Virus record (IMG/VR): IMGVR_UViG_3300021964_009390
Span: 62,001 to 126,000 of that record
DNA from: a virus
Strand: one strand, 5' to 3'
Length of the DNA stretch: 64,000 nt
This document shows, one piece after another, positions 32,017-36,199 of the stretch (within the stretch, counting starts at the first letter, position 1; each line of letters opens with the position of its first letter). The translations under genes and the position numbers were made by a program. The notes beneath the pieces are model-generated. The model worked only from the letters and a program-made list of their open reading frames with translations. It was not told the DNA's origin and did no database searches.

Positions 32017-32630
32017 TATATGGACCTCGATGTATGAAGAAAACAATTTATATAAGGATGCCAAGATGTGGATCTTTTACAGTGGTCAGTCTTTGTGAAA
32101 AAAATAATATTAAATATTACGGTGGTAGAGATATGGGTTTTTGGAACTATAATACAAACCATACAAAGAATACTTCACCGAAACTGTACAAATGCGTAGA
32201 AAACTATGTAAATGAAAAAGTGTATAATGAAAGTTTCATCTTTACAACTGTAAGGAATCCGTATTCCCGTGCAGTTTCAATGTATAAACACGAATCATGG
32301 GACTCCGCGAGAACTTTCAGCGACTTTTGTAATAAACTTATAAGAGATGAATACCCTTCAAAATTTGCAAAATGGCATAGCTCCACCTTGACAGAGCATA
32401 TTGTCGATAAGGATATTCTCAAAGTTGATTTTGTAGTCAAACTTGAAAATTTTCAACAAGACTTCGATACGGTCTGCGACAAAATAGGGATACCACGTCA
32501 ACAACTTCCACATGAAAACAAATCAAAACACAAACACTACACCGAATACTATGATGAAGAAACAAAACAAATTGTTGCGGAACGATACGCACGTGACATC
32601 GAGTTGTTCGGGTATGAATTTGATAAATAA
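32013..32630 (+). CDS. Sulfotransferase family 2, tail-module type
   Basis: 205 residues; ATG 32034 (MKKTIYIRMPRCGSF) is an alternative start. PAPS loop YIRMPRCGSFTVVSL and FTTVRNPYSRAVSMYKH. The final coding 85 bases (32538-32622) are identical to those of the gene at 35609, although the N-terminal parts are unrelated at DNA level. The tail ends GYEFDK. Confidence 0.85.
   Translation: MIYGPRCMKKTIYIRMPRCGSFTVVSLCEKNNIKYYGGRDMGFWNYNTNHTKNTSPKLYKCVENYVNEKVYNESFIFTTVRNPYSRAVSMYKHESWDSARTFSDFCNKLIRDEYPSKFAKWHSSTLTEHIVDKDILKVDFVVKLENFQQDFDTVCDKIGIPRQQLPHENKSKHKHYTEYYDEETKQIVAERYARDIELFGYEFDK
32538..32622 (+). repeat. 85-nt perfect direct repeat, copy A (sulfotransferase tail)
   Basis: Identical base for base to 36107-36191 and running from the TEYY codons to the YEF codons. 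Synonymous positions are also identical, which protein-level conservation alone does not explain. Confidence 0.9.
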
Positions 32631-32635
32631 CTAAC

Positions 32636-33364
32636 ATGAAAGCTATAGTGCAGAGTTGCGACAGATATCACAGTATGGCTCAAAACATGCTGGTTCAATA
32701 CGAAAAATTATGGCCATCTAATCCTTTTACATTCAGGGTCCCATGGAATGAAAAATATCCAGAAGTTATAGAAAATCAATTTGGAAGTAAAATAGAATTA
32801 ATTAACGCTGGAATTAAATTTAAGCAAACATTTCATGCACTAACTAAAGATCTTGATGACAATGACTGGGTTTATTGGTGTATTGATGACAGATACCTAA
32901 TAAGCATTGAAGAAGGGGAAGCTAATCAAGTTCTTAATTTTGTAGAATCAATTAAAAACCCTAACATCATTAATGTGTGCTTTCATTTTGTCAGGTATAT
33001 AAAAGATTCTGCAAATTGTATACAAAGAGAAGGCTCAGGTGTAGAAATTTATTTTGAAAACTTGAGATTTATACAACACAAATCTTTTATCAACAATTGG
33101 TTGCACCAATTTTTTAGAGTTAAAGCGTTAAGAGAGTTCTGGAGGCACATAGAAGAGCCACCTCAATATCAAGCCATACAAATGGATTACAGCACAAAAC
33201 CTTTAAATGGAATTTCTTTAACTTTAGACCATAATATATCCAGGTACGGAGAAAGCACGGAGGGGGGAACGATCACAAAAAATTGTCAAAATAGTTGTAT
33301 TGAAAATAATATATCAATCCCAAAAATTTTTTTATCAAAAAAACAAAAAACAATTATTATTTAA
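32636..33364 (+). CDS. Glycosyltransferase-like protein (GT-A type)
   Basis: 242 residues. MKAIVQSCDRYHSMAQNML is a typical GT-A opening and DDNDWVYWCIDDRYL supplies a D-x-D-like metal/nucleotide motif around residues 75-90. The C-terminus ends in a Lys/Ile-rich stretch from an AT-rich 3' end, next to a stray copy of the sulfotransferase tail. Sugar specificity unknown. Confidence 0.6.
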   Translation: MKAIVQSCDRYHSMAQNMLVQYEKLWPSNPFTFRVPWNEKYPEVIENQFGSKIELINAGIKFKQTFHALTKDLDDNDWVYWCIDDRYLISIEEGEANQVLNFVESIKNPNIINVCFHFVRYIKDSANCIQREGSGVEIYFENLRFIQHKSFINNWLHQFFRVKALREFWRHIEEPPQYQAIQMDYSTKPLNGISLTLDHNISRYGESTEGGTITKNCQNSCIENNISIPKIFLSKKQKTIII

Positions 33365-33367
33365 AAT

Positions 33368-33424
33368 CAGGACATTGAGTATTTTGGGTACGAATTCGAA
33401 CAAACGTCCAAAAAAGAATGGTAA
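33368..33424 (+). pseudogene. Orphan sulfotransferase tail fragment
   Basis: An 18-codon fragment [18 protein letters not shown], directly after the previous stop, without any start or upstream gene. Its DNA nearly matches the tail end of the gene at 33463. It marks a former sulfotransferase whose front was replaced. Confidence 0.7.
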
Positions 33425-33462
33425 TACAGTAATGGATCAGGCTAAATAATTATATTATTAAT

Positions 33463-34044: not shown

Positions 34045-34856
34045 ATATAAAAAATATTAATACAATTAAGTTATTTTCTGATCCACTGTTCGATGCGCAT
34101 TTTTCTGTCGATCCTGGTTCTAAATTTTTAATATTTAAATCAATAGATTTTAAAACGGTAAGTGCTACATTAAAAGTAGATCCGGTGAGTCTGGTTAAAT
34201 TTTTAAACGATATATGTATGGAGATGTATAGAAATGGTAAAACTAATGGTATACCTCGAGATGTGTCGATAAATTTACATGATCATTATTTTTGTGCGGA
34301 AACTATAAGAGATATATATTCAGGTATTATTTCTGACCTGCTAGCGGACAATAGTGAATGGAGTACAAACGAAATTGTTTCATTTGGGTTTTTATGCGGT
34401 AACACTAAACCTCAAAGATTGAAATACATTGAAATGGGTAAAAGTTTTTCTCAACTAAACTACATATCGACAAAAAAATACAATAGGTACTCCAAAGATA
34501 CAGACGGCTTCACAAGCGTGATAAAATTAAAAAAAGATTATAAGTATTTTATCGATTTAACCGGTCATAGCTACAGTACTAAAACATATCAATTTCTAGC
34601 ATCCAAACGCGTATACTTCACTTCTAAACATAATGAGATTTTAGACTGGGAAGCAAATCACTTAAAACCCTGGGAAAATTACATCCCGGTTGAAGATGAT
34701 CTTTCAGATCTTATAAGTAAATATCAAACAATAGAATCAAACCCGGTATTATATAAAAAAATTATTAAAAATAATACCAATTTGATAGCAAATCAACTCT
34801 CTCATAAATTAATGTTACAGCATTTAATAAAGACTATTTCAGCGTACATTATATAA
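34041..34856 (+). CDS. Glycosyltransferase family 90-like (CAP10 type)
   Basis: 271 residues from GTG 34041 (GTGA overlap with the upstream stop). FIDLTGHSYSTKTYQFLASK, then LDWEANHLKPWENYIPVEDD and LSDLISKYQTI match the GT90/CAP10 core (D-x-x-G-x-x-x-S...LKPWxHY-x-P-x-x-x-D-x-x-DL). Family members transfer xylose or glucose to capsule or protein glycans. Translationally coupled to a sulfotransferase. Confidence 0.7.
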   Translation: MNIKNINTIKLFSDPLFDAHFSVDPGSKFLIFKSIDFKTVSATLKVDPVSLVKFLNDICMEMYRNGKTNGIPRDVSINLHDHYFCAETIRDIYSGIISDLLADNSEWSTNEIVSFGFLCGNTKPQRLKYIEMGKSFSQLNYISTKKYNRYSKDTDGFTSVIKLKKDYKYFIDLTGHSYSTKTYQFLASKRVYFTSKHNEILDWEANHLKPWENYIPVEDDLSDLISKYQTIESNPVLYKKIIKNNTNLIANQLSHKLMLQHLIKTISAYII

Positions 34857-34903
34857 ATATAAGGAAGTTGAAAAATAATCAATTGTAGTTAATTATATAT
34901 ATT

Positions 34904-34975
34904 ATGAGAGTAGCTGTAACTGGAACTGCGTGTGTAGGTAAAAGCACATTTGTGAATGATTTTTTAAAAAATTGA
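34904..34975 (+). pseudogene. P-loop kinase N-terminal fragment
   Basis: A 23-codon frame MRVAVTGTACVGKSTFVNDF contains an intact Walker A (GTACVGKST), then stops after LKN just before the next gene. A TTGAAA and an AT-rich -10-like stretch lie upstream. Probably the remaining front of a deleted nucleotide or adenylylsulfate-type kinase. Confidence 0.5.
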
Positions 34976-34976
34976 T

Positions 34977-35612
34977 ATGAACATCAATTTATATGTGTCA
35001 TACTATAAGGATAAAATAAACGAGAGGAATCTGGAGCTAGAGCAGTGCCTGCTCGGTAATCTAACCAATGCCGCGGTAGACAACGTATATCTGCTAGCTG
35101 AAAACACCCCACCAAAACGGTTTCGGACTAACAGTAAAGTCACTGTCATACCACATAAACGACCCACGTTCACCAATTTTTTCAACATTGTGAACGACAC
35201 AACAGGTGCAAAGGATCTGAACATAGTCGTGAACAGTGACATCTACCTACCGGACAACATCGCGGACATACACCCTCATGTGAGTATGGACACAGTAGCA
35301 TGCATGTCCCGGTGGGAGTTACAATCTGATGGTTCGCTTGTACAGGCACGCGGACCACGTGGTGACAGCCAGGACGCGTGGATGTGGAGAGGCAAGATTC
35401 GCGAGGTGGATTACAGTGACTTCAACCTGGGTGTACTGGGTTGTGACAATCGAATAGCCTGGGAGTTCATGAACGTGGGTTATCGATTGATAAATCCATG
35501 CGAGACATTCAAAATAGCCCATGTACACAACTCCAAAGTCAGAAATTACAGATACAATGATCTGAATGACAAAGTGTCTGGACCATACCAGTTTGTGTCA
35601 CATAGCGCATGA
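34977..35612 (+). CDS. Glycosyltransferase-like protein (GT-A type)
   Basis: 211 residues. NIVVNSDIYLPDNI provides a D-x-x motif after a Rossmann-like strand, followed by CMSRWELQSDGS and DSQDAWMWRG and the acceptor-type YSDFNLGVLGCDNRIAWEF. These resemble family 2-like glycosyltransferases of phage and polysaccharide clusters. ATGA overlap with the following sulfotransferase. Confidence 0.6.
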   Translation: MNINLYVSYYKDKINERNLELEQCLLGNLTNAAVDNVYLLAENTPPKRFRTNSKVTVIPHKRPTFTNFFNIVNDTTGAKDLNIVVNSDIYLPDNIADIHPHVSMDTVACMSRWELQSDGSLVQARGPRGDSQDAWMWRGKIREVDYSDFNLGVLGCDNRIAWEFMNVGYRLINPCETFKIAHVHNSKVRNYRYNDLNDKVSGPYQFVSHSA

Positions 35613-36199
35613 TAAGTCACGAGCATAAATTTCTTTTCATTCATGTGCCACGGACAAGTGGTAGCAGCATCGAGATACAGTTTAAATACAACGATGCAGG
35701 TATGTGGATGGTAAACTATGATGGTCGTAAGCATTGGACATTGAACCAATGGAAAGAACATTTAGAACCGGAAGTATTTGAAACATATTTCAAATTCACA
35801 ATTGTCCGGAATCCTTGGGACCGGGTAATCAGCAAATATTGTACACGTAATGAGTTTGGACCGATCGGACAACCGGCCGGAAAATCACTGAAATATTTTC
35901 TAGACAATTACAAAACTCCCGGGAACGAACATGGAGAGACCTTGATTGATTATTTCGATCCGGAGCAGATGGATTACATCGGTAGATTTGAATCTAGAGA
36001 GGACACATTAACATATGTGTCACAGAAAATTGGTGTAGAAATAGACAATAGCTACAAGCTTAGACCAGTACAAGCCACGATCAAGCAACAAAACGATAAC
36101 CATCATTACACCGAATACTATGATGAAGAAACAAAACAAATTGTTGCGGAACGATACGCACGTGACATCGAGTTGTTCGGGTATGAATTTGGTGACTAA
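35609..36199 (+). CDS. Sulfotransferase family 2, tail-module type
   Basis: 196 residues. FLFIHVPRTSGSSIEIQF (PAPS loop), FTIVRNPWDRVISKYC and the tail HYTEYYDEETKQIVAERYA, GYEFGD. The last 85 coding bases before GGTGAC are identical to the gene at 32013. Last gene of the second island; ordinary late genes begin 48 nt on. Confidence 0.85.
   Translation: MISHEHKFLFIHVPRTSGSSIEIQFKYNDAGMWMVNYDGRKHWTLNQWKEHLEPEVFETYFKFTIVRNPWDRVISKYCTRNEFGPIGQPAGKSLKYFLDNYKTPGNEHGETLIDYFDPEQMDYIGRFESREDTLTYVSQKIGVEIDNSYKLRPVQATIKQQNDNHHYTEYYDEETKQIVAERYARDIELFGYEFGD
36107..36191 (+). repeat. 85-nt perfect direct repeat, copy B (sulfotransferase tail)
   Basis: Second copy of 32538-32622, 3.5 kb downstream. Recombination between the two would remove the intervening four genes. 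Confidence 0.9.

Follow-up and report, generated by a model that had tools for sequence, protein, structure and literature searches.

How do two sulfotransferase genes that are otherwise unlike each other come to end in the same 85 nucleotides? The question is raised by IMG/VR virus record IMGVR_UViG_3300021964_009390, of which positions 62,001 to 126,000 were analysed; this stretch of 64,000 nucleotides is referred to as the window, and coordinates are those of the window and its + strand unless another contig is named. From sequence comparison we consider it probable (about 0.8) that the repeat results from recent homologous recombination, by gene conversion or crossover, within a conserved 3' end of ~93 nt. 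This 3' end, the last ~31 codons of Sulfotransfer_2 (PF03567) genes, is called the tail, and the remainder of each gene the body.

The 85-nt repeat

Exact-repeat search found positions 32538-32622 and 36107-36191 to be identical, with no extension of the match possible on either side. No other exact repeat in the window comes near it in length: a 32-nt tandem repeat is next, and then come repeats of 28-29 nt, which are further copies of the sulfotransferase tail. The first copy lies in the tail (32535-32630) of sulfotransferase D (32013-32630; PF03567, E 5e-15; alternative start possible at 32034), the second in the tail (36104-36199) of sulfotransferase F (35609-36199; PF03567, E 1e-14); both are in-frame 3' ends of intact ORFs. 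The bodies of D and F are identical at 35/137 amino acids (~26%) and 45% of nucleotides, the tails at 28/28 amino acids and 100% of nucleotides over 85 nt, with zero differences. Identity at every synonymous position, as reported in the earlier note, was confirmed: the two genes use one and the same codon at each of the 28 fully shared positions, for which the chance is ~2e-8 if body codons set the expected same-codon rate (0.53) and ~7e-6 at 0.655 (the rate observed for tails within contigs). Chance is excluded as the source of the identity.

Tails and islands within the genome

The pair singled out in the earlier note is part of a larger family, with eight full-tail genes and two orphan tail remnants in the same 222-kb genome. 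Besides D and F, the window holds sulfotransferases A (2986-3591; tail 3496-3591), B (3595-4209; tail 4114-4209), C (31426-32016; tail 31921-32016), and E (33463-34044), the tail of the last being 86% identical in nucleotides to those of D and F; within the genome, the body closest to that of F is that of E. All six score 55-75 bits to PF03567 (cut-off 22), with matches reaching the profile end (252/252). A mini-ORF at approximately 4755-4892 consists of a sulfotransferase start (NKHIIIHVAPPKT) fused head to tail and in frame to a tail of 25 amino acids; having no sulfotransferase body, it is, by its sequence, a deletion scar. An orphan tail fragment of 18 amino acids (33368-33424) stands directly behind an unrelated gene of unknown family (32636-33364; no Pfam, NCBIfam or PHROG match) located between D and E.

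Other island neighbours are a glycosyltransferase family 90-like gene (34041-34856; profile match to PF05686) and, just before F, a further gene of unknown family (34977-35612; GC 46%); the segment 34977-36199 has a GC content of 40-46% vs 29-37% in the genes before it. A flanking gene (37860-38732) has profile matches to APS kinase-like (PF01583) and nucleotidyltransferase-like (PF01467) domains and is a possible source of PAPS; used as a probe for the same locus, it retrieved only distant relatives (65-79% amino acid identity) with different island content. An Rfam search of 30800-37000 gave no RNA family, and a search for reverse transcriptase (PF00078), as expected of a diversity-generating retroelement, gave no match in the 222-kb record, which may be incomplete; such an element was rejected as an explanation.

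An AF2 model (pLDDT 86.8) has a predicted sulfotransferase fold. In BFVD its structure matches viral sulfotransferases, with E values reaching 1e-9, and its top matches in PDB are likewise sulfotransferases, though weak (best E 1.5e-3, TM ~0.5). In the model, the tail corresponds to the final two helices, and residues D195, F199, Y201, and F203 are invariant across 64 proteins. The island enzymes are putative PAPS-dependent sulfate transferases by sequence and model, and the islands probably change how sugars on the surface of host or virion are sulfated.

Ancestry of bodies and tails

In a quartet comparison, the body of F was set against that of a gene (3111-3764) of contig 3300021957_006329 (L207), with 101/146 identical amino acids (69%) and 68% nucleotide identity, whereas their tails share only 22/28 amino acids and 80% of nucleotides; the F tail matches that of its body relative no better than background. 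The tails of F and D are both 93% identical in nucleotides to that of the neighbouring L207 gene (3770-4399), the bodies agreeing with that gene at 45/142 and 45/144 amino acids. The body of F groups with E, L235, and one L207 gene, not with D, and the residues right before its tail (HHYT) are as in the L207 gene of its body clade. Body and tail of F are thereby shown to have incongruent apparent ancestries, and these alignments lend good support to recombination in the tail. Of the recent gene conversion or duplication proposed in the earlier note, tail conversion (or crossover) is upheld by the quartet test; duplication of the gene is not, the bodies being only ~26% identical in amino acids.

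In a set of 89 non-redundant genes, tails of one contig share synonymous codons more often than tails of different contigs (0.655 vs 0.601; permutation p=0.0017), and the same-codon rate of tails between contigs is 0.62 vs 0.54 expected from bodies, both tail-tail statistics being inflated since loci were fetched largely for bearing a tail. For bodies of the same 89 genes, nucleotide identity within vs between contigs showed no effect (p=0.38), and synonymous sharing was marginal (0.506 vs 0.487; p=0.05). Conversion is not exclusive to tails, since two adjacent paralogues in L207 share an exact mid-body run of 118 nt.

Tails in other contigs

In total, 181 tail instances were found; they are spread over 78 contigs, nearly all of them from uncultured viruses. 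Tails of the same contig on unlike bodies agree at 84/87 nt in 3300035232_001500, 83/87 nt in 3300009508_002179, and 82/87 nt in 3300025809_002164; including D and F, such pairs are 82-86/87 nt alike while their bodies are below 50% nucleotide identity. The tails of this genome share exact runs of 50-51 nt with other contigs; a search of viral contigs with an exact 50-nt tail pattern gave no match elsewhere. Island DNA gave no match among isolate phages, and a tail search of isolate phages gave a single weak match (Stenotrophomonas phage DLP_6). In bacterial and archaeal genomes the tail pattern occurred on one MAG contig (L185), which is 91% alike to a viral contig (L078) and probably represents a mis-binned virus.

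Orphan tails were found behind genes for GDP-mannose dehydratase (GMD), an RmlD-like epimerase, a methyltransferase, and an alpha/beta-hydrolase-like protein, with junctions at varying positions: before tail codon 1 and at codons ~7, 9, 10, 13, 16, and 20. Gene content changes at the tail in one set of close relatives, the L067 group, where the same tail is followed by a GT2 gene, a GT25-like gene or nothing, homology being lost 0-28 nt past the tail stop codon. Alignment break points fell at tail ends in 13/66 cases vs a background of 1.8%, and at other gene ends in 31/66 vs 8.6%; the excess at tail ends is only about twice that at other gene ends and is biased by alignments that cross conserved tails.

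Discussion

Under the reading that we favour, each tail would act as a short homology (~50-100 nt, 80-100% identical, same strand, in frame), along which the recombination machinery of the phage, probably UvsX, could overwrite one tail with another, remove the stretch that separates two of them, or attach an incoming body to a tail already in place, in each case leaving the sulfotransferase reading frame intact. Repeated events of this kind would homogenise the tails, while the glycosyl- and sulfotransferase islands would gain, lose, and swap genes. A clear UvsX-like recombinase (phrog_97, E 8e-59) is encoded in the genome and is, by sequence, a likelier agent than the RadA-like protein that the earlier note suggested: a RadA/KaiC-like ATPase (8839-9768; 309 aa) is present, but it covers only positions 63-264 of the 454 of RadA/Sms, at 90 bits vs a curated NCBIfam cut-off of 403. 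The note had also envisaged deletion of 3.6 kb (3.57 kb) between the copies; with both tails on the same strand and in the same reading phase, recombination between them is mechanically possible and the deletion plausible, although no deleted relative was found among the phages compared.

The route by which F acquired its tail, of which it appears to be the recipient from a D-type gene, has a second version: the body of F and its neighbour 34977-35612 may have come from another phage, a resident D-type tail having served as the site of crossover, instead of F being converted in place. The higher GC content of 34977-36199 and the cassette exchange at tail ends seen in other phages agree with such an entry; the HHYT before the tail resembles the body clade of F, which in-place conversion fits equally, and neither a donor nor an empty locus is known. 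We regard this version as possible but lean against it. An assembly artefact, with the repeat collapsed or copied, has to be considered for a metagenomic record of an uncultured virus, yet it is improbable: short reads are typically longer than 85 nt, the flanks of each copy differ at once on both sides, both copies are in frame in intact ORFs, and similar pairs occur in independent contigs.

Protein-level constraint does explain part of the conservation of the tail, as expected of a C-terminal helix pair that closes the PF03567 profile and contains the four invariant residues, and selection on the protein would contribute to tail likeness alongside recombination. That purifying selection and shared codon preference did everything is nevertheless very improbable: it is contradicted by the quartet, the 28 identical D-F codons and synonymous sharing above expectation speak against it, orphan tails persist though no longer part of an enzyme, and isolate phages with sulfotransferases gave almost no tail match. 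Still less can be said for a site-specific cassette system with the tail as a recombination site like integron attC, which might be suggested by same-strand arrays of genes with a shared 3' element and by orphan elements behind unrelated genes; the junctions vary instead of showing a fixed cut, tails as single-stranded DNA fold no better than shuffled sequence (z -1.7 to +0.6), and the element is a coding sequence with ~20% variation. Recent duplication of the whole gene with fast divergence of the body is the hardest to credit. Tandem paralogues are common in the islands, and adjacent ones in L207 have alike bodies; for D and F it is refuted by the contrast of dissimilar bodies with a tail free of differences, and by the clustering of the F body away from D.

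Homologous recombination within the tail resembles several known systems. Because common boundary sequences rarely turn up, illegitimate recombination is frequently invoked to explain phage mosaicism (PMC3029335); the same paper discusses short boundary sequences, namely the 29-bp repeats of LRRHood and genes 67/68 of Island3, two unlike genes that have their last 18 residues and ~50 bp of DNA in common, the presumed site of insertion or deletion. As in Island3, recombination would occur here at short sequences common to gene 3' ends; unlike that single pair, there are eight full tails and two remnants in one genome, and the tail stands on dissimilar bodies in dozens of contigs. Phage recombinases (lambda Red, PMC2327257; Rad52-like, PMC3945230) recombine DNA of 12-22% divergence over short homologies, with a minimum of ~30 bp for Red beta (same sources), and the divergence and lengths of these tails fall in matching ranges; those activities were measured, in temperate phages, whereas the recombinase predicted here is of the UvsX/RecA type. 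Phage genomes are usually without repeats (PMC3945230), unlike this one with its many.

The function is probably surface-related, as in T4-type tail fibres, and in both cases short conserved coding DNA would guide exchange of variable parts. In T4-type tail-fibre genes, conserved segments permit exchange of adhesin ends. Mosaicism of tail-fibre genes is noted in PMC2993671; here, by contrast, the genes encode probable glycan-sulfation enzymes, many paralogues occur per genome, and the conserved part is at the 3' end. Known phage sulfotransferases (phrog_3347; P-SSM7, ACG-2014f, SIO1 gp5.1) belong to the same family by sequence and predicted fold, yet, apart from the one weak match, isolate phage genomes yielded no tail that paralogues share at high DNA identity.

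What is new relative to known short-homology mosaicism of phages is a boundary sequence family that is repeated within a genome and across contigs. The boundary sequence is visible: it recurs in one genome, ends dissimilar genes on dozens of other viral contigs, and persists as scars downstream of unrelated genes, so that the share of short-homology recombination in gene turnover becomes directly countable. A further step, which we offer tentatively and think rather unlikely, is that the tail is a communal docking sequence, kept alike in DNA across many uncultured phages because through it sulfo- and glycosyltransferase genes can be exchanged, deleted, and joined anew by ordinary homologous recombination; if true, this would amount to integron-like gene shuffling that needs no dedicated recombinase.

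The 85-nt repeat and its gene family

An earlier note had reported an identical 85-nt direct repeat in two unlike sulfotransferases, and the repeat holds: the 85 nt at 32538-32622 recur without a mismatch at 36107-36191, with the identity ending there on both sides. Each copy is the in-frame 3' end of a Sulfotransfer_2 gene, D (32013-32630) and F (35609-36199), respectively. The source record, G000 (222,461 bp, virus; window at bases 62001-126000), has ten PF03567 matches, and a near-identical 31-residue ending, here called the tail, is found in eight G000 genes: A to F in the window (A, B, C, and E starting at 2986, 3595, 31426, and 33463) and two on the minus strand at 41-42 kb of G000. 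Compared pairwise, the eight bodies are ~13-47% identical in amino acids, the tails 74-94% in amino acids and 70-96% in nucleotides. G000 also holds two bodiless remnants: at ~4755-4892 a sulfotransferase start is joined in frame to a tail, the body being gone; at 33368-33424 a tail piece lies behind an unrelated gene (32636-33364).

Other repeats are present in the window. A 34-nt motif (AAAAGTTGC...GCATACAAT) has nine dispersed copies between 12521 and 29690, upstream of small genes (at 12521, 18817, 19575, 22290, 22590, 23556, 24753, 28420, and 29657), and looks like a repeated promoter; a repeat of ~206 nt at 45927-46360 (228-nt step, 72% alike), within a minus-strand ORF, is a duplicated protein domain; a 442-aa ORF has an 18-nt tandem repeat (EVEKPVEVEKIV) in its coding sequence, at 49677-49812.

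The tail in the protein

The AF2 structure predicted for D (pLDDT 86.8) places the tail in its two final helices (182-191 and 193-199). Across 64 proteins, D195, F199, Y201, and F203 never vary, so the tail contributes to enzyme function. This role explains amino-acid identity, but not codon identity. The fold matches viral sulfotransferases, and cellular sulfotransferases weakly. The flanking gene 37860-38732 is an APS kinase-like and nucleotidyltransferase-like fusion, common among viral contigs, where it occurs at no fewer than 597 loci, with an APS-kinase-like domain above the Pfam cut-off and far under the NCBIfam apsK cut-off; that it helps make PAPS is only a guess.

Distribution

We found 181 tail instances on 78 contigs, almost all uncultured viral; searches of isolate phages and of cellular genomes gave nearly none. 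A tail-bearing contig binned as Flavobacteriaceae (L185, CAKZOO010000161.1) is probably a mis-binned virus; ~2 kb of it aligns with viral contig L078 at 91% identity. Of 410 alignments (≥85% identity, ≥60 nt) between contig pairs that lack long DNA similarity, 399 fall on tails (1.9% of the sequence), a figure inflated because the loci were collected by tail; a fair comparison sets tails against bodies of the same genes. One contig, L207 (3300021957_006329), carries a five-gene array of tail-bearing sulfotransferases at 3111-6362. In another, L030 (near 10237-10326; 3300021958_011541:6420), a 418-aa ORF comprises sulfotransferase and tail and reads on in frame for ~220 aa. The DNA of the window's tRNA-Thr gene (18307-18382) has counterparts of 89-91% identity in L008 and L042, two contigs that are otherwise unlike and also bear tails.

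Evidence for recombination within the tail

The clearest test of recombination is a quartet of D, F, and two L207 genes. The F body shares 101/146 amino acids with L207 gene 3111-3764, and their tails are 80% identical in nucleotides, not above background; the F and D tails are 100% identical over 28 codons, and the following L207 gene, on an unlike body, has a tail that matches each of them at 93%. The D and F bodies share 35/137 amino acids, which rules out whole-gene duplication; of the recent gene conversion or duplication proposed in the earlier note, conversion or crossover within the tail is what stands, and it is well supported.

Between contigs, the same codon is used at identical residues in 62% of cases in tails (71 genes), versus 54% expected from bodies. 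For 89 genes, synonymous codon sharing in tails is 0.655 within contigs versus 0.601 between (p=0.0017); bodies of the same genes have no within-contig excess in nucleotide identity (p=0.38) and a marginal one in synonymous sharing (p=0.05). Of the 14 best tail pairs that sit on unlike bodies, 4 come from the same contig (0.3 expected). Two neighbouring L207 paralogues with alike bodies are identical over 118 nt in mid-body, another instance of conversion, which is thus not limited to tails; the tail is the chief remaining homology between genes with unlike bodies.

Proposed mechanism and gene turnover

The tails, 80-100% identical over 50-95 nt, fall within what phage recombinases can act on (PMC2327257, PMC3945230). 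G000 encodes a 354-aa UvsX-like protein around 168766-169524 (phrog_97, E 8e-59); the RadA-like protein first suggested as promoter of recombination has a partial RadA/Sms match and would be an accessory at best. Because the six window tails share a strand, recombining any pair would remove the intervening DNA and leave an intact gene; with a minus-strand G000 tail, an inversion would result. The 3.6-kb deletion envisaged earlier is possible: D-F recombination would lose 3569 bp (the gene at 32636, E, a GT90-like gene, the gene at 34977, and the F body), and no such deletion was seen.

Elsewhere, tail pieces follow a GDP-mannose dehydratase (3300028844_005445), an RmlD-like epimerase (3300037190_000807), and a minus-strand gene (3300030117_006283); one is entered in another frame by a methyltransferase (3300049222_000557), and one is fused in frame to an alpha/beta-hydrolase-like gene (3300046532_004697). 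One set of related contigs varies in what follows a particular tail, be it a GT2 glycosyltransferase, a GT25-like gene, or no gene at all, and homology stops 0-28 nt past the tail stop. With this set excluded and every break counted once (n=66), homology ends ≤40 nt from a tail end in 13/66 cases versus 1.8% expected (~11-fold), and near other gene ends in 31/66 versus 8.6% (~5-fold); the excess at tail ends is supportive, and biased, as alignments extend through conserved tails.

The closest precedent comes from mycobacteriophages, in Island3 gene 67/68 (PMC3029335); new here are the scale and spread of a single tail family.
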